A stretch of 20,205 nt of DNA, from positions 1 to 20,205 of IMG/VR virus record IMGVR_UViG_3300047326_000064; one strand, 5' to 3'. Below, piece by piece: positions 3,478-19,747 of this stretch. Source of the stretch: a virus. Made by a program: the position numbers and the translations under genes. Positions within the stretch are counted from its first letter, which is position 1. The number at the start of each line of letters is the position of its first letter. The notes below the pieces were generated by a model. It searched no databases, was not told where the DNA came from, and worked only from the letters and a program-made list of their open reading frames with translations.

Positions 3478-5328
3478 TTATATGGATGGCGGCGGAGGTG
3501 GGCTCGGTGGCGAACTGCCGCCAGGTGGCGCGGGAGGAGCGCCGAGATCGGGTGTGCCCCCAGCTCCACCACCGCCAAGTCCTGGTAGACTCATTGCTCC
3601 CCCTGCCCCTCCTGGCAGACCCGCGGCTCCTCCGGCAGGATCCGCATACGGACTATCAGCAGGCACGGCATCGTCTAAAATGTCGGGAATGTCGTCGCTT
3701 TCGCTCAATGCTCGCAATTCCGTCAACGGCATTCGTCCGAGTGTTGCTAATTCCTTTGTGCGAATAGCTTCTGCAATGTCTTCCTTTCGGATCTTTCTGC
3801 GCTCTTCATCATAATCAAGACCAAGAGAACGATAGAGAGATTGCTGACTAACTTTCTTTTGATCGCCAGAAAGCTGAACAAGAACATTGATAAAGTCCAT
3901 ACTTTCAAACAGAGTCATATAGTTCCAGTCTACTTCGGGTATGATAAGCTTTTTGATACCATCTTCGTAGTCATAGAAGTCATTCAGTTTTGCAATTGGA
4001 GCGAAAATCTTGTTCTTGAGCCAAGCTGCCATCATATTACGAAATTGCATATAGCGCTGACGAAGAACATCGAGAGAAACGCCTCCGTTTGCGTAAGTAA
4101 TATCGCCTCCGCCATCCATTAGAACAGATGGCACCATTAGACCCATATACACTTCCTTGATGAGTTGAGTGATGTCGCTTGAAATATCTACGATAGCTGA
4201 ATTCCAACCAACTCGTTCGACCGAGACTCCATCGTGAGTAAAGAGCTTGAAGTTCTTGTCGAATTCTGCTTGTTCGAATTGTTCTCGGTAGCTTTCGAGA
4301 ACATCCATCGTTGGTTTGAATCCATCTTGCCCAGCTCCACCTACTTTGACGATGGTCATTGGGGTAATCATTGATTGGGCTTGAACGAATTTGCTCTCCC
4401 TAAGCTGGTCAAACAGGCAGAGCTGACGAAAACAACTCACCGCCAGCCCCGTCCCACGCACTTCATATGGACTAATTCTTCGAGCAATATGTGATACATA
4501 AAAGCTACTTAGCGGGATATTCTCTCCTCGTTTGATATGTTCTACAATTGTTGGGTTCAGCTGAGCCTTCTGCTCCAGATCTGCCGGACGATTAGAGAAA
4601 ACAATTCGACGCAAGTTCTCATCGGGTCGCATCATTATAATTGGTTCACTCGCAAGCACACTTCGCTTTACCTCCATGTAATCGGGATTTTGAACAACAA
4701 GACGACTCCATTTTGCTTGGACTTCGTCCAGTTCCGCATAAATAAATGCCTCTCCAAGTAGCCAATATTCCTGGGCTACTTGCACGCAAACATTCATCAG
4801 ATCAATCTCCTCAATCATAGTATTGAAGAATTGCTCCACCTTCTTGTTTGGACACTTGATATTGAGCTTACTAATAGGGTATGTGGAGTGAAGATTGATA
4901 GCGTTATGAACGATTGGATTGAGCGCGTAGAAAGAGCGATTCCAAGCATTGATTGTAGCTCTGTCGCGTGGGAGATTTAGGTTTGAGTTTAGCCAGAGAG
5001 GCGAGTAGACCTCAGGCATTTGTCGCACCGTATTTGATTGTCCTCCCCAACCTCCGCCGTTATTTTGTCGCCCATTTGCTCCATAGGCTTGAGCATTTTT
5101 TAGCATTGGGTATCTTTCAGAGGCGGATGCGCTCTTTACTGAAGAGATGACATTACTGAGTGGGTTAGACTCAGTTGGGGTCGCCGATCCATCTCGATAA
5201 GACCCTTGTTTTACCTCTTGTTCGAGAGTTCCCTTGCGATACTGGGAGACATTCTTATACATACCAGGCGATACGATTGGTGGAAGTCTACGGGATTCGA
5301 GGTGCTTTTCGGATTTGGATTGGATCAT
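3478..5328 (-). CDS. Phage portal protein, 616 aa, with Gly/Pro-rich C-terminal tail
   Basis: This is the dodecameric channel at the capsid vertex through which DNA is packaged and ejected. The call rests on length, on its place directly after TerL (30-base gap), and on portal-like features: a central wing/stem region containing NPIVHNAINLHSTYPIS (137-153), a QEYWLLGEAFIYAEL segment (186-200), VGWNSAIVDISSDITQLIKE (373-391) and YMGLMVPSVLMDGGG (394-408), the usual arrangement around the portal tunnel. Residues 1-105 are polar and Gly/Asn-rich. Residues 551-616 form a low-complexity tail of Gly, Pro and Ala ending in a Pro run, which is unusual for portals and locally raises GC (about 3482-3660). 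An AGAGAG purine tract before ATG 5328 is a possible ribosome-binding site. I could not assign a portal subfamily. Confidence 0.9.
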   Translation of the reverse strand: MIQSKSEKHLESRRLPPIVSPGMYKNVSQYRKGTLEQEVKQGSYRDGSATPTESNPLSNVISSVKSASASERYPMLKNAQAYGANGRQNNGGGWGGQSNTVRQMPEVYSPLWLNSNLNLPRDRATINAWNRSFYALNPIVHNAINLHSTYPISKLNIKCPNKKVEQFFNTMIEEIDLMNVCVQVAQEYWLLGEAFIYAELDEVQAKWSRLVVQNPDYMEVKRSVLASEPIIMMRPDENLRRIVFSNRPADLEQKAQLNPTIVEHIKRGENIPLSSFYVSHIARRISPYEVRGTGLAVSCFRQLCLFDQLRESKFVQAQSMITPMTIVKVGGAGQDGFKPTMDVLESYREQFEQAEFDKNFKLFTHDGVSVERVGWNSAIVDISSDITQLIKEVYMGLMVPSVLMDGGGDITYANGGVSLDVLRQRYMQFRNMMAAWLKNKIFAPIAKLNDFYDYEDGIKKLIIPEVDWNYMTLFESMDFINVLVQLSGDQKKVSQQSLYRSLGLDYDEERRKIRKEDIAEAIRTKELATLGRMPLTELRALSESDDIPDILDDAVPADSPYADPAGGAAGLPGGAGGAMSLPGLGGGGAGGTPDLGAPPAPPGGSSPPSPPPPPSI

Positions 5329-5358: not shown

Positions 5359-8271
5359 TCAGCGCATTTTGGGCACATAGCCGGTAATAATTAGAGCCTG
5401 CTCTTTTTTGACGGTGTTATTGGCTCCAACTTGGATTTTGAAGCCGTTTGAGATGTAGAATTTGTAGGCGAGATAGGCATTGAGTAGTGCCATGAATCCG
5501 TCGTTTGGTGCAGAGCCCTTTATGTAATGAGCCTCGAAATCTCCGCCACGAGACATTGATGGTTTTATCTCCATACTGGTACAGTGATTTATTAGCCACG
5601 AAATAGCTTCATAATCTCCAAGTGGAAATCTAATACTACCTTTTTTCATTTGTTCATATAATTGACCAATATAAAAATCTTTTTCAAAACGAATTTCTTT
5701 CGGTGTAATATCTTCGTGAAACTTTATATGATTATTCAATTTACCAGCTACGCGAGATGAAAGAAATTTATCACCATATTCCATAGATAATATTTCATTT
5801 AGATCTTGCGCGTGCCCAATATCACAAACACCTAAATTACAAGAATATCTTCTCATTATTTCATCAATAATACCTTTTTTTGAAGCAAGATCGTTTCTTT
5901 TGAATTTGCAGGCATATATGATTTCCAACCTGGTTGGACCAGTAGCCTCTAAAACAACAGCTGTTGAATAAGACTGTCCTTGATTTCTTGATTTATCATT
6001 GTCAGCTAATTGTGCTATATCATTTTTACTTCCAATATCTACTCCTAGGAATATTGGATTTTCTGGACTTGAAATTGCGTTGGCTTTGAACTTTCTTCCG
6101 ATATCTCCACAAATTTCTCTTACCTGATCTGGTGTCATGCTGGAAGCTTCACCTTGAAAGAACTCGCCAAGAACTTCATTTTGATATGATCTTTCAGTAT
6201 TTATTGTAGAGACGCCTGGTTTTTCTGACATCATCTTCTCTTTACTTATACCTGGCATAAATAATTGATTGATGAAAAAGCCAACAAACTTGGCATCTGG
6301 ATCTTTATTCGCCGCAATCCATTTTCCCCTTTCGGCAGCTTCAAACTTATCTTGCTCACATCCACAATGCGTGCAGCGAACTGTAAACCCAGAAATCCAA
6401 ATATCTTCCCACTCATTAGACCCTGGGGTATAGAGAGGAAAGTATTCTTTACATTTTTCACAACCAAGATGGTAAAATTGCTGGCTACTTTTGCTCCACA
6501 TATCTGCAAAAGTAGAATTACGAGATTTTGGAGTTCCAAAGTATACTTGAACACCGGAACCTGTTGCACCATATTGCGCGCGATTGAGAACTTTGGTTGC
6601 ATTTCCGAGAGCAGCTTGACTCATTTCTTGAATTTCATCAAAAAAGATAATATCAGCTGTATTATGTGTTGGTATAAAATTTTCTGTTATCAAGAATAAA
6701 CCATTAGGACTATCTACCGTTAGGCAACGCATTGGCGTGGGCTCTATCAACTTAACACTTTTTATATATCGGTGTGTACTCATACACGTAGCTGTATTTT
6801 TAGTTCTTTGATTTTTAAATTTTCTCGCTAATCTAAATACTGGTAATTTTGTTGTAAAATTTATTCTGAATCTGTTTTTACATTGTTTTTCATACAACCA
6901 GCTTTCATTTTCTATAATATGTGCCTTAATACCCATACTTAAAAGTAATTTATATACATCGTAGGAAAGTTCTCGAATTACTGATGTAAATTCAATTCTT
7001 CCATTTGAATCGCAGAATCCATCGGTATCCATCAAACCCTGTATCAACGCAAGCCTTTGCTCACATGAGCCCATCATATACTCTGTCGGTATTCGTTTTT
7101 CATAAACATTGTTATAGTCTTTATGATTATTAATCAATAGACCAAGTTTGCGAAGTTTTGTAGTTAGTCCAACAACCCTGTATGTGTTAGATTTTGATCC
7201 ATTATCAATTGATGATGGAATTACTCTATGCTCAAAATTATTTAATATTTCTGGATCAGCAGTCTGTATTCCTCCACCACCATTACCATCTCCCAACCAA
7301 AGTCCAAGAAGATATGGATCAATTATTTGATCTTTTTGTGAAAAATTTACCGGCAAACAATTGGGAATTGAATGATTATTTTCTTTATTGTTGCATACTT
7401 TTAATGTTGCTAATATTTCCTTTGTAGTTTTAACTTTTGGAATAGGTGCATTTTTACATTTACCTCTATTAAATTTAGCAATATTTATTCGATCTCTTTT
7501 TGTGTATGTTAGCCACAGATGATCTGCGCAAGCCTTTACTATGGTTCCATCGTCGAATGTTATTTCATACGATTCTGGCGATATATTAATCGGATGCAGC
7601 TTGATAACTTTACATATATTACCATTCTCATCAAATAAACTATCTCCTTGTTTTACATCTGATAGTTTTACAAAACCATTTGGCGTTGGTATTTTCGTAT
7701 CAAGAGCAAGTTGCTTTCCTCTAAATCTTTCTGCACTCAATCCTGTACTTTCAATCCAAATGTGATTTCCGCCCTTGAATTGTTTGAATTGTAAACTGTC
7801 ATTTGTTGGAGCACTCGTGTCCAACAATGATTGCATATATGATTTTCTTTGACCTTTACCGTCATAATTTTCTTCAGGAATTGATGAGGCTATCATTCCA
7901 TTCAATTTTACTTTTGAATAGGATGCAGCTAAATCTAATTGTGGAAATGCATGTATAATTCTTATTGGTGGTTTATCATCGGTTCCAAACAAGCCAGAAC
8001 CCATAAAATACATTTCAAGAGCATTCGCTATAGTACTTAGTCCTGATTGACGAGACTTAAGTACAACGATAGGTAATGAGTTTTTTTCTAATGCTTTGAT
8101 TCCAATATATCGAATAATTTCTGCATGTGGTTTATATCCACTTTTAGATAATCTGTAAGGTTTTCCATCCAAATTTAGGTAGTGCTCACAGAAAGCTACC
8201 GGGTCTATTTGAGAAAGTTTTTCTTTTATACGATTGAAAATAAAGTCATCTGGTCTTTCAATTGCTGACAT
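5359..8271 (-). CDS. terL: Terminase large subunit (TerL), interrupted by an in-frame intein
   Basis: This is the ATPase and nuclease motor that packages and cuts phage DNA. The precursor is 970 residues; removing residues 187-537 leaves a 619-residue TerL. A Walker-A-like motif LKSRQSGLST lies at 71-80, and Walker B IIFFDE at 541-546, just after the intein. A C-x2-C...C-x2-C cluster (604, 607, 633, 636) followed by RGKWIAANKDPDAKFVGFFI resembles the zinc-ribbon region of GpA-like terminases. Nuclease-domain acidic residues are probably D745 (FLGVDIG), D817 (GVCDIGHAQD) and D924 (NDGFMALLNAY). AGAGG ten bases before the ATG is a fair ribosome-binding site. Unlike portal, most of the gene is AT-rich. 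It is the first leftward gene after the rightward methyltransferase island, so it probably has its own promoter or depends on read-through. Confidence 0.95.
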   Translation of the reverse strand: MSAIERPDDFIFNRIKEKLSQIDPVAFCEHYLNLDGKPYRLSKSGYKPHAEIIRYIGIKALEKNSLPIVVLKSRQSGLSTIANALEMYFMGSGLFGTDDKPPIRIIHAFPQLDLAASYSKVKLNGMIASSIPEENYDGKGQRKSYMQSLLDTSAPTNDSLQFKQFKGGNHIWIESTGLSAERFRGKQLALDTKIPTPNGFVKLSDVKQGDSLFDENGNICKVIKLHPINISPESYEITFDDGTIVKACADHLWLTYTKRDRINIAKFNRGKCKNAPIPKVKTTKEILATLKVCNNKENNHSIPNCLPVNFSQKDQIIDPYLLGLWLGDGNGGGGIQTADPEILNNFEHRVIPSSIDNGSKSNTYRVVGLTTKLRKLGLLINNHKDYNNVYEKRIPTEYMMGSCEQRLALIQGLMDTDGFCDSNGRIEFTSVIRELSYDVYKLLLSMGIKAHIIENESWLYEKQCKNRFRINFTTKLPVFRLARKFKNQRTKNTATCMSTHRYIKSVKLIEPTPMRCLTVDSPNGLFLITENFIPTHNTADIIFFDEIQEMSQAALGNATKVLNRAQYGATGSGVQVYFGTPKSRNSTFADMWSKSSQQFYHLGCEKCKEYFPLYTPGSNEWEDIWISGFTVRCTHCGCEQDKFEAAERGKWIAANKDPDAKFVGFFINQLFMPGISKEKMMSEKPGVSTINTERSYQNEVLGEFFQGEASSMTPDQVREICGDIGRKFKANAISSPENPIFLGVDIGSKNDIAQLADNDKSRNQGQSYSTAVVLEATGPTRLEIIYACKFKRNDLASKKGIIDEIMRRYSCNLGVCDIGHAQDLNEILSMEYGDKFLSSRVAGKLNNHIKFHEDITPKEIRFEKDFYIGQLYEQMKKGSIRFPLGDYEAISWLINHCTSMEIKPSMSRGGDFEAHYIKGSAPNDGFMALLNAYLAYKFYISNGFKIQVGANNTVKKEQALIITGYVPKMR
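6661..7713 (-). other. Class 3-like intein with LAGLIDADG homing endonuclease, inserted in TerL
   Basis: This 351-residue insertion (TerL precursor residues 187-537) separates FRGK from TADIIFFDE, which rejoin to a normal terminase Walker B region. Block A reads QLALDTKIPTPNG, matching the usual CLALDTPIPTP start except for Gln at position 1. Block B is GTIVKACADHLW, with His at B10 and Trp at B12. Block F is MRCLTVDSPNG, with Cys at F4 where most inteins have Asp. Block G is NFIPTHN, with Thr-His-Asn at the end and Thr as +1 residue. Trp-Cys-Thr is the class 3 signature, in which the block F Cys acts as first nucleophile. Two DOD endonuclease motifs are present, LLGLWLGDGN (321-330) and LIQGLMDTDG (409-418), with acidic residues intact. 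Boundaries are set by alignment to intein blocks and the extein motif. Confidence 0.93.
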
Positions 8272-8529: not shown

Positions 8530-9288
8530 ATGCGCACCCAGACCTTCAAAAATGGCATTGCCGTGCATGGGTCATTTGGTTCGCCAGAAATTCAAAACTA
8601 TCTTCTATCATTAGATAAATTTCCACTCGTTATTTCTGATCCGCCATATGGGAATATTGTTCCTGATGGTTGGGATAAGTATTCGGAAGAAGCACTCTGT
8701 GCGTCTTTAATCTCTTGGTCAAACCAAGTCAAAGAATTGCTTGTTCCCGGCGGATCATACTACTGCTATGGTGGAATAGGAAAACCTAATGATCGTCCAT
8801 TCTTTCGTTTCCTTTCTATCGTAGAAAAAGAAACCGGTTTACAAATGCGCAATATGATCTGTTGGAAGAAATGTAGGGCATATGGAAAAAAGGATGATTA
8901 CTTATTTACCAGAGAGGAAATAGCTTGGTTCGTAAATGGCGAAAAGCCAGCTATCTTCAATATCCCTTTGCTCGATACAAAACGCGGCTATGCTGGATAC
9001 AACAAGAAGTATCCCGCCAAAAGTGAATTCTATCGCAGAACCAATGTATTCACCGATATCAACGAAATATTCAAAGGTAAACTTCACGTTGCCCACAAGC
9101 CAGAGAAGTTGGCAGAAGTTTTTATTTCCACTCACACTCACGAAGGAATGACTATACTTGATCCATTCGCCGGTTCGGGCAGCTCAGCGGTTGCCGCGCT
9201 CAACCTCAAACGCAAATTCGTCGTCATCGAAAAAGACCCAGAGACATTCGACAAGATGTGCGCGAGACTCACTGCTCTAAACGCTTAG
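8530..9288 (+). CDS. DNA methyltransferase, N6-adenine type (DPPY), beta-class order
   Basis: This 252-residue enzyme transfers a methyl group from S-adenosylmethionine to a DNA base. The catalytic motif IV is SDPPYG (D37-Y40), typical of N6-adenine (possibly N4-cytosine) methyltransferases. The cofactor motif I, LDPFAGSGSS (~210-219), is near the C-terminus and is followed by FVVIEKDPETF. Motif IV before motif I is the beta-class order. HVAHKPEKLAEVFI (~185-198) matches the KP-LL-type motif X region before the binding loop. No target-recognition domain can be assigned. No restriction endonuclease is adjacent, so it looks like an orphan enzyme that could protect phage DNA or alter regulation; that role is inference. 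Its stop is six bases from that of the convergent 213-residue gene. Confidence 0.92.
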   Translation: MRTQTFKNGIAVHGSFGSPEIQNYLLSLDKFPLVISDPPYGNIVPDGWDKYSEEALCASLISWSNQVKELLVPGGSYYCYGGIGKPNDRPFFRFLSIVEKETGLQMRNMICWKKCRAYGKKDDYLFTREEIAWFVNGEKPAIFNIPLLDTKRGYAGYNKKYPAKSEFYRRTNVFTDINEIFKGKLHVAHKPEKLAEVFISTHTHEGMTILDPFAGSGSSAVAALNLKRKFVVIEKDPETFDKMCARLTALNA

Positions 9289-10869: not shown

Positions 10870-11364
10870 TTATGCAGATTTATGGCTTTGGAAGAAGCTG
10901 GCTCGTAATTGCAGCCTAACACTTCTTTCACTACTGGCTTGCTGATAGGTTGTATTGTATGGATTGTTGGTAATGGCGCCGGGCTCATTTAGCACACTAC
11001 CCGAGTAGTATTCTACTGATGGATAGGTTAAAGTTCCCTCGGTGCCAGTTGCACCATATGGACTTGTATAGGATGGAGTAGGTTGTAGAGGGACATTTCC
11101 ATCCATTTTGCGCATATCCTCAAGCTTCTTGTGCATTGCTCGCATTTTCTTTAGTCGCTCGATTATTCGTTTTCTTCGTTTTTGGATGGCATAGAATTCT
11201 TTGTTATCAAAGCCATATGGCTCGTGATTTTCCCGTCTATCCTGATCCATTGTTCGATCGCCATCAATGCCCGGAATAGCACCTTGAAGTTCAGTATATG
11301 CGTGCTCTTGCTGAACATTACTGACATCGTCAAAGTAGGCGAATTTGTCGAGAATATCGGTCAT
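10870..11364 (-). CDS. Hypothetical protein, 164 aa, basic helix plus Tyr/Thr/Pro-rich tail
   Basis: ATG 11364 overlaps the stop of the nucleotidyltransferase gene by four bases (ATGA), a strong sign of translational coupling. Residues ~55-88 form a very basic helix (EFYAIQKRRKRIIERLKKMR), suited to binding nucleic acid or an acidic partner. The tail from ~90 is rich in Tyr, Thr, Pro, Ser and Gly (PTPSYTSPYGATGTEGTLTY) and likely disordered. No family is recognised. The pairing with the upstream nucleotidyltransferase raises the possibility of a joint function, but a small structural protein is equally plausible. Confidence 0.78.
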   Translation of the reverse strand: MTDILDKFAYFDDVSNVQQEHAYTELQGAIPGIDGDRTMDQDRRENHEPYGFDNKEFYAIQKRRKRIIERLKKMRAMHKKLEDMRKMDGNVPLQPTPSYTSPYGATGTEGTLTYPSVEYYSGSVLNEPGAITNNPYNTTYQQASSERSVRLQLRASFFQSHKSA

Positions 11365-12311
11365 TTTCCTACTCTATCTGGTCTTGTGTTTAGGATCTTT
11401 TTGATGGTCTTAGCTCGTCTTTTGCGGCGTTTTTTACGCCAATCCATCACACTCTTGTATTTGGACATATCACCATGGTAGAGTCCTACACCTGGTCCAG
11501 TTGAGCTATCTGCGTAGTCAAAATTCATAAACAACTGCGCAGTTTTATGTCTCTTTTGGTAGAATGGCAGTATCTCATTAGTTATCGGCACCAAATCCCA
11601 CAAACCAGTCTTATTGAGAAGATCAATCGCAATATCTGGATTTGCCTTGAATGCTTTGTTTAGATTTTTTGTCAGGTAGGAGTCCGAAGATGCGCGAATT
11701 ACCTGCTTGTTATCTACAATCCACTTGATGATACTGGGATCAACACCGAATCCAAGCTTGGCTGCCAAATAGATTACGCGAATAATCCTATTGGGATTAC
11801 TTCTGAAAGTCGCGTCAGGAGAAAGACAGGTTCGAATCATCTTTGCTTTGATGTCTTTGATCCCGAATTTTGTGGGATCTTTTATCTTGCGCATATCTGG
11901 TGATAAAAGTAGCGCATTGCAAGTAAAATCTCGACTAAACATCTCTTTTTGAAGAGGTGTTGGGTTTTTTATTCCTCTTGCGGCGAGGAGCTTATCAATA
12001 TTAGGATCAATGAAGTTCGAAGAGAAGTCCACTTTGAAGTCGCCAATATAGACAGAAGTATGTCCGTCATTCATTAGCTTAGAACTAACATCATATGACT
12101 TGGATAATTCAGAAACAAAAAGCTTGGCAAGATTGTGAACGGTTGGGTCGCCCGTGGTAATATCTAAATCTGAAACATCGATTTCGTTCTTGGTATGAAA
12201 AACGGACTCGATTGCTTTGGCTCTGGCTATTCCTCCGGCGATCCAAACATTTGATATACCATTCTTTTGCGCCAAATCCTCAAGCAGTGTCAGTATTTCT
12301 CGGAGTTTCAT
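11361..12311 (-). CDS. tRNA nucleotidyltransferase / poly(A) polymerase-family protein (CCA-adding type head domain)
   Basis: This is a 316-residue class II nucleotidyltransferase, the family that adds CCA to tRNA 3' ends or adds A tails. The head domain shows VWIAGGIARA (Gly pair at 26-27) and the catalytic DxD in DVSDLDITTGD (D48, D50), with a likely third carboxylate in FKVDFS (D95). The family motif RDFTCNALLL begins at R127. DIKAKMIRTCLSPDATFRSN and PNRIIRVIYLAAKLGFGV match the DLK...R and DPxRxLRxxRFAAxL segments of the neck. The C-terminus (280-316) is very basic. A strong AAGGAGTGAG site precedes ATG 12311. It is shorter than cellular CCA enzymes (about 400 residues). It is coupled to the downstream 164-residue gene and sits inside the virion-type operon, which is unexpected. 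Whether it adds CCA, A tails or something else cannot be read from sequence. Confidence 0.87.
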   Translation of the reverse strand: MKLREILTLLEDLAQKNGISNVWIAGGIARAKAIESVFHTKNEIDVSDLDITTGDPTVHNLAKLFVSELSKSYDVSSKLMNDGHTSVYIGDFKVDFSSNFIDPNIDKLLAARGIKNPTPLQKEMFSRDFTCNALLLSPDMRKIKDPTKFGIKDIKAKMIRTCLSPDATFRSNPNRIIRVIYLAAKLGFGVDPSIIKWIVDNKQVIRASSDSYLTKNLNKAFKANPDIAIDLLNKTGLWDLVPITNEILPFYQKRHKTAQLFMNFDYADSSTGPGVGLYHGDMSKYKSVMDWRKKRRKRRAKTIKKILNTRPDRVGK

Positions 12312-18988: not shown

Positions 18989-19747
18989 CTAACCAATCAT
19001 TTTCCTAACATCATCAATATTATTCTCTCTGACAAGGTCATACAAGTCTTTGTATCCTTCCGGGATATGACCCACCTTTATATCGGCAAGGCTTGAATAT
19101 TGTCTCGCAATCTTATCTGCCCCCACTCGCCCAGCCTCATCATTATCCAGCAGCACAATAAAATTCTTTGTGTATCGCAAAAGCAGCGATACCTGCTCAA
19201 AGCTCATTGCCGATGATCCAAGAGCTACAACATTGCACATTTCCTTGTTGTGAGCTGCAATCACATCAAATTGCCCCTCGACAATATAGCAGCAATTGTC
19301 CCTTACAATACTTTTCTTGCCTTCAAAAAGCCCGAATAGATTAGCTCTTTTCTCAAAGCTCGTATTCTTATACTTTGGAATCTTGGCAATAGCCCTCTCG
19401 CTATCATTCAGTATAGAACGCCCAACAATTCCAACAATCTCGCCATATGCATTTCTATATGGCATCACAAGATTATGATTCTCGAAAGATGCGTGGCGCT
19501 CGTGAATAAACTCGTCTCCGTTATAGTATGTTCTATCGTAGATAATATCTAATGCAGATAGTTGTGCATCGGTCAAATATGACTCCAATAACTTCAACTT
19601 GTGATTACTGGGGAACCAACCGATCCCAAATGACGCTTGGGCAGATCGTGGTAATCTACTATCCACATATAGCCGCGCATCTTGCGCCGCTTCCTCATTT
19701 ACAAGGAATTCAGAGCAGCAAGAGATTAGAGTATCAAAATCATTCAT
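18989..19747 (-). CDS. DnaG-type primase catalytic core (TOPRIM), without zinc-binding domain
   Basis: This 252-residue protein is the RNA-polymerising part of a bacterial/phage primase, which makes primers at the replication fork. The N-terminal ~135 residues contain ASFGIGWFPSNHK (38-50), NLVMPYRNAYGEIVGIVGRS (92-111) and KYKNTSFEKRANLFGL (125-140), typical of the primase core before TOPRIM. The TOPRIM domain shows IVEGQFDVIAAH (E157) and VLLDNDEAGRVGADKIAR (D201, D203), followed by a short GYKDLYDLVRENN end. Usual DnaG enzymes start with a CHC2 zinc finger and end with a helicase-binding domain; both are missing, so a partner gene may supply them. GGAG five bases before the ATG is the ribosome-binding site, and a hairpin sits just upstream of it. 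Confidence 0.92.
   Translation of the reverse strand: MNDFDTLISCCSEFLVNEEAAQDARLYVDSRLPRSAQASFGIGWFPSNHKLKLLESYLTDAQLSALDIIYDRTYYNGDEFIHERHASFENHNLVMPYRNAYGEIVGIVGRSILNDSERAIAKIPKYKNTSFEKRANLFGLFEGKKSIVRDNCCYIVEGQFDVIAAHNKEMCNVVALGSSAMSFEQVSLLLRYTKNFIVLLDNDEAGRVGADKIARQYSSLADIKVGHIPEGYKDLYDLVRENNIDDVRKMIG

Follow-up and report, generated by a model that had tools for sequence, protein, structure and literature searches.

The terminase gene of an uncultivated virus very likely harbors a splicing-competent and probably still mobile class 3 intein of the LAGLIDADG type, in which the first residue, Gln1, would serve as a leaving-group residue; this reading combines the sequence, a structure model and the analogy to studied class 3 inteins. 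The window, i.e., the whole stretch of DNA analyzed here, is a complete IMG/VR record of 20,205 bases and represents a single 20-kb metagenomic assembly. Its minus strand encodes a terminase precursor, into which a segment of 351 residues is inserted in frame.

5359..8271, minus strand: intein-containing GpA-type terminase large subunit (TerL) precursor, 970 aa (ORF; Pfam GpA_ATPase PF05876, E=1.2e-9, residues 537-651)
7714..8271, minus strand: N-extein, residues 1-186, ending with ...RFRGK (flank ...ERFRGK; ungapped at the joint against intein-free relatives)
6661..7713, minus strand: class 3 intein, 351 aa, precursor residues 187-537 (translation, class 3 alignment, superposition of the structure model)
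7711..7713, minus strand: Gln1, codon CAA, position 1 of block A (translation, empty-site relatives, superposition, Walker A relatives)
5362..6660, minus strand: C-extein, residues 538-970, starting with the +1 Thr, TADIIFFDE (Walker B; translation, intein-free relatives)

The insert starts with QLALDTKIPTPNG, ends with ENFIPTHN, its last codon being AAT (Asn), and is separated by three residues from the Walker B segment IIFFDE. It interrupts the packaging ATPase, which is intact in near relatives lacking the insert; the Pfam match corresponds to the C-terminal part of the precursor. The sequence-only reading had placed a terminase intein at positions 6661-7713 and predicted a spliced product of 619 residues, and the translation bears out both: removal of the 351-aa intein from the 970-aa ORF leaves exactly this length. 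A chance resemblance is ruled out, since full-length relatives match the intein with 52-67% identity across all 351 residues and with E values down to 3e-160.

Intein-free relatives and the structural register fix Gln1 as the first residue

Residue 1 had been proposed to be Gln because only this choice would restore the terminase sequence upon excision. Alignment of six intein-free relatives (L409, L410, L413, L416, L417, and L418) with the joined flanks is ungapped at ..RG(K/R)-(T/S).., where the hyphen denotes the splice site. The relative L409, which reads RLRGRTADVMFLDE, is 85% identical to the spliced product over all 619 residues. Moreover, related inteins with Gln1 reside in P-loops, as in L004 (GKHGIGK-Q...N-T), L016 (GGHGRGK-Q...N-T), and L019 (GLHGVGK-Q...N-T). 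In these three the junction is forced, because the Walker A motif GxxGxGKT is restored only if Gln is excised together with the intein. In addition, superposition of the structure model places its residue 7, which corresponds to Gln1, on residue 1 of the solved inteins 6bs8, 6rix, and 6riy, and Asn351 on the last residue of the solved class 3 inteins.

Taken together, the empty-site homologs, the P-loop relatives and the structural register establish Gln as residue 1. An alignment placing the N-terminal junction at another residue had been named as the finding that would overturn the proposal; both the empty-site and the structural alignments keep Gln1. Other N-terminal junctions are ruled out by the intein-free relatives together with the Walker A relatives.

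The insert aligns in register with class 3 inteins

Relatives were collected from viral and bacterial collections using four differently seeded alignments, and near copies were removed, resulting in a non-redundant set of 295 sequences including the window (294 relatives). Within the intein, the motifs DHLW, RCLTV, and PTHN start at residues 64, 329, and 348, respectively, and provide the following residues.

7519..7521, minus strand: His65, block B position 10 (B10; invariant, 295/295)
7513..7515, minus strand: Trp67, block B position 12 (B12), the W of the Trp-Cys-Thr (WCT) triplet (invariant, 295/295)
6724..6726, minus strand: Cys330, i.e., precursor Cys516, block F position 4 (F4), the C of WCT and predicted first nucleophile (invariant, 295/295)
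6667..6669, minus strand: Thr349, block G position 5 (G5), the T of WCT (invariant, 295/295)
6661..6666, minus strand: His350-Asn351, penultimate His and cyclizing Asn (sequence)

The terminal Asn (G7) likewise never varies across the 295 sequences, 290 of which also have the penultimate His. The proposed WCT set, Trp at B12, Cys at F4 and Thr at G5, is thus found as Trp67, Cys330, and Thr349. The alignment with the solved class 3 intein MchDnaB1 (6rix) is gap-free from residue 2 to residue 69, and His65 and Trp67 even share their numbers. The active site of MchDnaB1 comprises Cys124, His65, and Thr143 with Trp67 (PMC7664689), the counterparts of which are Cys330, His65, Thr349, and Trp67. This common register upholds the class 3 identity that had been claimed for the element.

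The AlphaFold2 model of the intein (pLDDT 93.5, pTM 0.92) points in the same direction. Its splicing domain adopts the HINT fold of the solved class 3 DnaB inteins (1.3-1.8 Å), with Z 20.4 and 1.3 Å over 125 residues for MsmDnaB1 (6bs8) and Z 20.9/20.5 for MchDnaB1 (6riy/6rix). The class 1 intein gp41-1 superposes nearly as well (Z 18.3 vs 20.4-20.9), and this similarity would also suit a class 1 intein, or one that has lost the nucleophile at residue 1, with a WCT-like triplet arisen by chance and the true junction located elsewhere. At B12, large hydrophobic residues, Trp among them, are also known from class 1 inteins (PMC7891396), and gp41-1 has Thr at G5 (PMC7664689). However, class 1 inteins carry a nucleophile at residue 1, whereas the residue found here is Gln, and Cys, Ser, and Thr are absent at or beside the N-terminal junction. 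Moreover, the F4 Cys is present in 295/295 sequences while residue 1 takes 11 different residues, and the junction is fixed by the empty sites. The class 1 interpretation is already largely refuted, and the probability we leave to it is negligible.

A direct attack of Thr(+1) on the N-terminal scissile bond, for which the F4 Cys would be dispensable, is very unlikely as well. Residue 1 is non-nucleophilic, as in the class 2 KlbA inteins, but class 2 is characterized by the lack of WCT and by Cys at +1. In the window the WCT triplet is complete and +1 is Thr, whereas Cys starts the class 2 reaction (PMC10663303); besides, class 2 had until then been represented by KlbA only (PMC3196547). Assignment of the insert to class 3 is supported by the WCT triplet, by the modeled fold and by a first residue that is not a nucleophile. 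The element is of an already known kind, a WCT class 3 intein with the mechanism ordinary for this class.

Several known inteins serve for comparison. MchDnaB1 (6rix/6riy) and MsmDnaB1 (6bs8), both from Mycobacterium DnaB, share His65, Trp67, the F4 Cys, the G5 Thr, and the terminal His-Asn. Unlike the window intein, both are mini-inteins that lack an endonuclease and reside in DnaB, and MchDnaB1 carries Ala at residue 1, Asp at block B position 7 (B7), and Val at block F position 2 (F2). Judged by its published description, the founding class 3 intein in DnaB of mycobacteriophage Bethlehem has the same triplet and a predicted start by the block F Cys (PMC3196547). The mycobacteriophage intein TerL1-e, likened by description, is also of class 3 and also located at the Walker B motif of a phage terminase (PMC5050341), although its host belongs to the TerL1 family and that of the window to the GpA type. 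Further counterparts occur in the GpA-type terminases of uncultivated phages (L012, L013, L001, and L006), at the same site (RG(K/R)-T or MGR-T), with Gln1 and 53-67% intein identity.

Gln ranks second at residue 1 among the class 3 relatives surveyed

At position 1, relatives sharing the WCT triplet show many residues that are not nucleophiles. In the non-redundant set (n=295) we counted Ala 163, Gln 61 (window included), Leu 21, Pro 14, Met 13, and Gly 10, followed by the rarer Cys 4, Glu 3, Arg 3, Asp 2, and His 1, i.e., 11 residues in all; the numbers vary with the seeds and should not be taken as frequencies in a population. Gln therefore ranks second behind Ala (61 vs 163), and the rarity of Gln1 implied by the sequence-only reading does not hold. 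The survey of class 3 relatives rules out Gln1 as a rare residue.

Gln1 is spread over several groups of the tree, with 8 changes among labeled groups, at least 7 of which are forced by supported branches. It is found at the terminase site of the window, in a P-loop ATPase, and in many P-loop terminase inteins (many of them in Firmicutes genomes). A separate reading of named phages with a clear H-x-W motif (n=24) yielded Gln in 1, Glu in 2, and Leu, Arg, and Asp in 1 each, the others being small. A survey from 2020 comprised 1,701 class 3 inteins (PMC7891396), and Gln1 may already be among these. Among the papers covered by our literature search, none described class 3 inteins starting with Gln or the coupling treated below.

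These data confirm the freedom at residue 1 in class 3 inteins and add a documented Gln1 set (61/295). In consequence, tools that seek Cys, Ser, or Ala at position 1 may overlook such inteins or misplace their boundaries.

Four relatives (L062, L082, L285, and L388) combine the full WCT triplet with Cys at residue 1 and thus possess each of the two candidate first nucleophiles. Lys occupies position -1 in 263/294 relatives, and Ser or Thr position +1 in 293/294; the 294 relatives surveyed are mostly located at P-loop-like GK-S/T sites. The RGK-T site before Walker B in the window looks like the product of a jump to a mimic of this P-loop-like sequence.

Proposed splicing pathway and mobility

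The steps proposed for the window intein are taken from studied class 3 inteins (PMC7664689, PMC7891396, PMC3196547). By analogy, Cys330 of block F would attack the peptide bond between Lys(-1) and Gln1, which would be activated by His65 with Thr349 and by a strained junction. The N-extein would then be transferred from Cys330 to Thr(+1), Asn351 would cyclize, and the ester would rearrange to an amide to yield the 619-aa terminase. Gln1 would act exclusively as a leaving-group residue and perform no covalent chemistry of its own. As judged from covariation, its side chain is probably accommodated by the small residue at B7 (Cys62) and by Met328 at F2, which replace the Asp and Val of Ala1 class 3 inteins.

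The endonuclease domain is marked by two motifs.

7285..7311, minus strand: LAGLIDADG motif 1 (block C), LLGLWLGDG, with Asp142 (sequence)
7018..7047, minus strand: LAGLIDADG motif 2 (block E), LIQGLMDTDG, with Asp229 and Asp231 (sequence; Pfam LAGLIDADG_3, E=7e-9)

The two motifs with their acidic residues as well as the fold are those of a LAGLIDADG homing endonuclease. The model superposes on the PI-SceI precursor (1jva) over its whole length, with Z 27 over 322 residues (PI-SceI superpositions Z 24-27). The motifs had been described as intact, and D142, D229, and D231 are indeed all kept. Since D142 and D231 are retained, while 62 of the 295 sequences have Asn at the first motif, the window copy may still be mobile.

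It is likewise very improbable that the intein has decayed and that the terminase of the phage is non-functional. One inactive class 3 intein is documented, namely Arth_1007 (PMC3196547), and a record consisting of one metagenomic assembly would be compatible with such decay. Nevertheless, the window retains every catalytic residue, the Asp of both endonuclease motifs and an uninterrupted frame of 970 aa, and Arth_1007 lacks the F4 Cys and the B10 His, both of which are present in the window intein.

In P-loop terminase inteins with Gln1, e.g., in L118, L130, and L154, the first motif reads WLGNGN, with Asn replacing the first endonuclease Asp. This replacement suggests a reduced or altered endonuclease activity in these inteins.

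Residue 1 covaries with B7 and F2

Two further residues of the intein covary in relatives with residue 1.

7528..7530, minus strand: Cys62, block B position 7 (B7), coupled to residue 1 in relatives (covariation)
6730..6732, minus strand: Met328, block F position 2 (F2), coupled to residue 1 in relatives (covariation)

Of 163 relatives with Ala1, 143 have Asp at B7. Asp is absent from this position in relatives with Gln1, which carry Gly (48) or Cys (12) there, and Met occupies F2 in 58/60 of them. More generally, a large residue 1 (Gln/Met/Leu/Glu) pairs with a small B7 (Cys/Gly) and Met at F2; where residue 1 is small (Ala/Pro/Gly), its partners are Asp at B7 and Val/Thr at F2. An unbiased scan of columns for information on the class of residue 1 ranked F2 first (0.78 bit), followed by 46, 43, B7, and 48.

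The recurrence of this pattern was assessed on a tree of class 3 relatives only, from which the columns of residue 1, B6-B8, and F1-F3 had been left out. On this tree the size class of residue 1 changed 17 times. The size class was used because Gln1 alone is uninformative as a test, Gln mostly swapping with residues of the same background. Over 15 supported independent pairs, F2 changed 10.3 times in the same and 0 times in the opposite direction (p about 0.002), and B7 8.9 and 1.1 times, respectively (p about 0.02). A paired test over 308 columns singled out 328, 43, 325, 46, 62, and 48, with 8.8-11.5 net pairs compared with 6.1 for the next column and a median of 1.3, though all these values are inflated, as the sign of each column was picked from the same data. 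Among named phages outside the tree, Asp at B7 occurred in 0/6 with a large versus 8/18 with a small residue 1 (Fisher p 0.066), and Val/Thr at F2 in 1/6 versus 14/18 (Fisher p 0.015).

The distribution lends about even weight to the notion that class 3 has two interchangeable designs of the N-terminal junction, between which lineages have repeatedly switched: either Asp at B7 and Val/Thr at F2 accompany a small residue 1 (Ala/Pro/Gly), or a large one (Gln/Met/Leu/Glu) is combined with Cys/Gly at B7, Met at F2, and changes at 43, 46, 48, and 325. In the crystal structure of the class 3 intein AceL NrdHF, B7 is close enough to hydrogen-bond with the carbonyl of residue 1 and with the scissile amide; according to the authors, class 3 inteins lack a conserved B7 residue (PMC7891396). 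In our reading, B7 appears unconserved in class 3 because it tracks residue 1; if true, the existence of two designs would explain the published alignment. Located two residues ahead of the catalytic Cys, F2 plausibly points its side chain into the same pocket.

As regards the coupling only, the pattern could instead reflect shared ancestry of two splicing-domain lineages, the seeming recurrence being due to tree error or to recombination between splicing and endonuclease domains; we place this at somewhat under an even chance. All coupled columns lie within the splicing domain, and a tree built from this domain only yields 3 independent supported pairs, which are too few branches for a coupling test. 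When pairing was extended to all branches of that tree, the six columns showed 11-13 co-changes versus at most about 8 elsewhere, a lenient comparison, because the other columns built the tree. The choice of column signs in the 308-column scan from the same data also leaves room for shared ancestry. On the other hand, the full tree without the trait columns gave the F2 and B7 results over 15 pairs mentioned above, the named phages outside the tree bear out the F2 result and show the same direction for B7, and in the published structure B7 sits next to the carbonyl of residue 1 and the scissile amide.

The coupling of residue 1, B7, and F2, as read from the alignments, may be new. If real, it predicts which residue 1 is tolerated by a given class 3 intein and would help to choose inteins for protein engineering.

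Genomic surroundings and paired inteins in relatives

Downstream of the terminase, a portal protein gene is located at 3478-5328. Family matches are absent for most other large ORFs of the record. Upstream and on the opposite strand, a DNA methyltransferase gene (N6_N4_Mtase; 8530-9288, plus strand) apparently stands alone among minus-strand genes, and the regions 11361-12311 and 18989-19747 (both minus strand) show matches to tRNA nucleotidyltransferase and DNA primase.

Unlike the window, four of the relatives (L013, L014, L017, and L018; terminase ORFs of 1081-1345 aa) contain an extra, class 1-looking intein 9 extein residues downstream, so that two inteins of different class surround Walker B. 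The order in all four is the class 3 intein with Gln1, the extein segment TADVIFFDE or its like, and then the class 1-looking intein, which starts with CFPY and ends with HN-C. Each of the two also occurs singly: the class 1-looking intein alone in L414 and L415, and the class 3 intein alone in the window.
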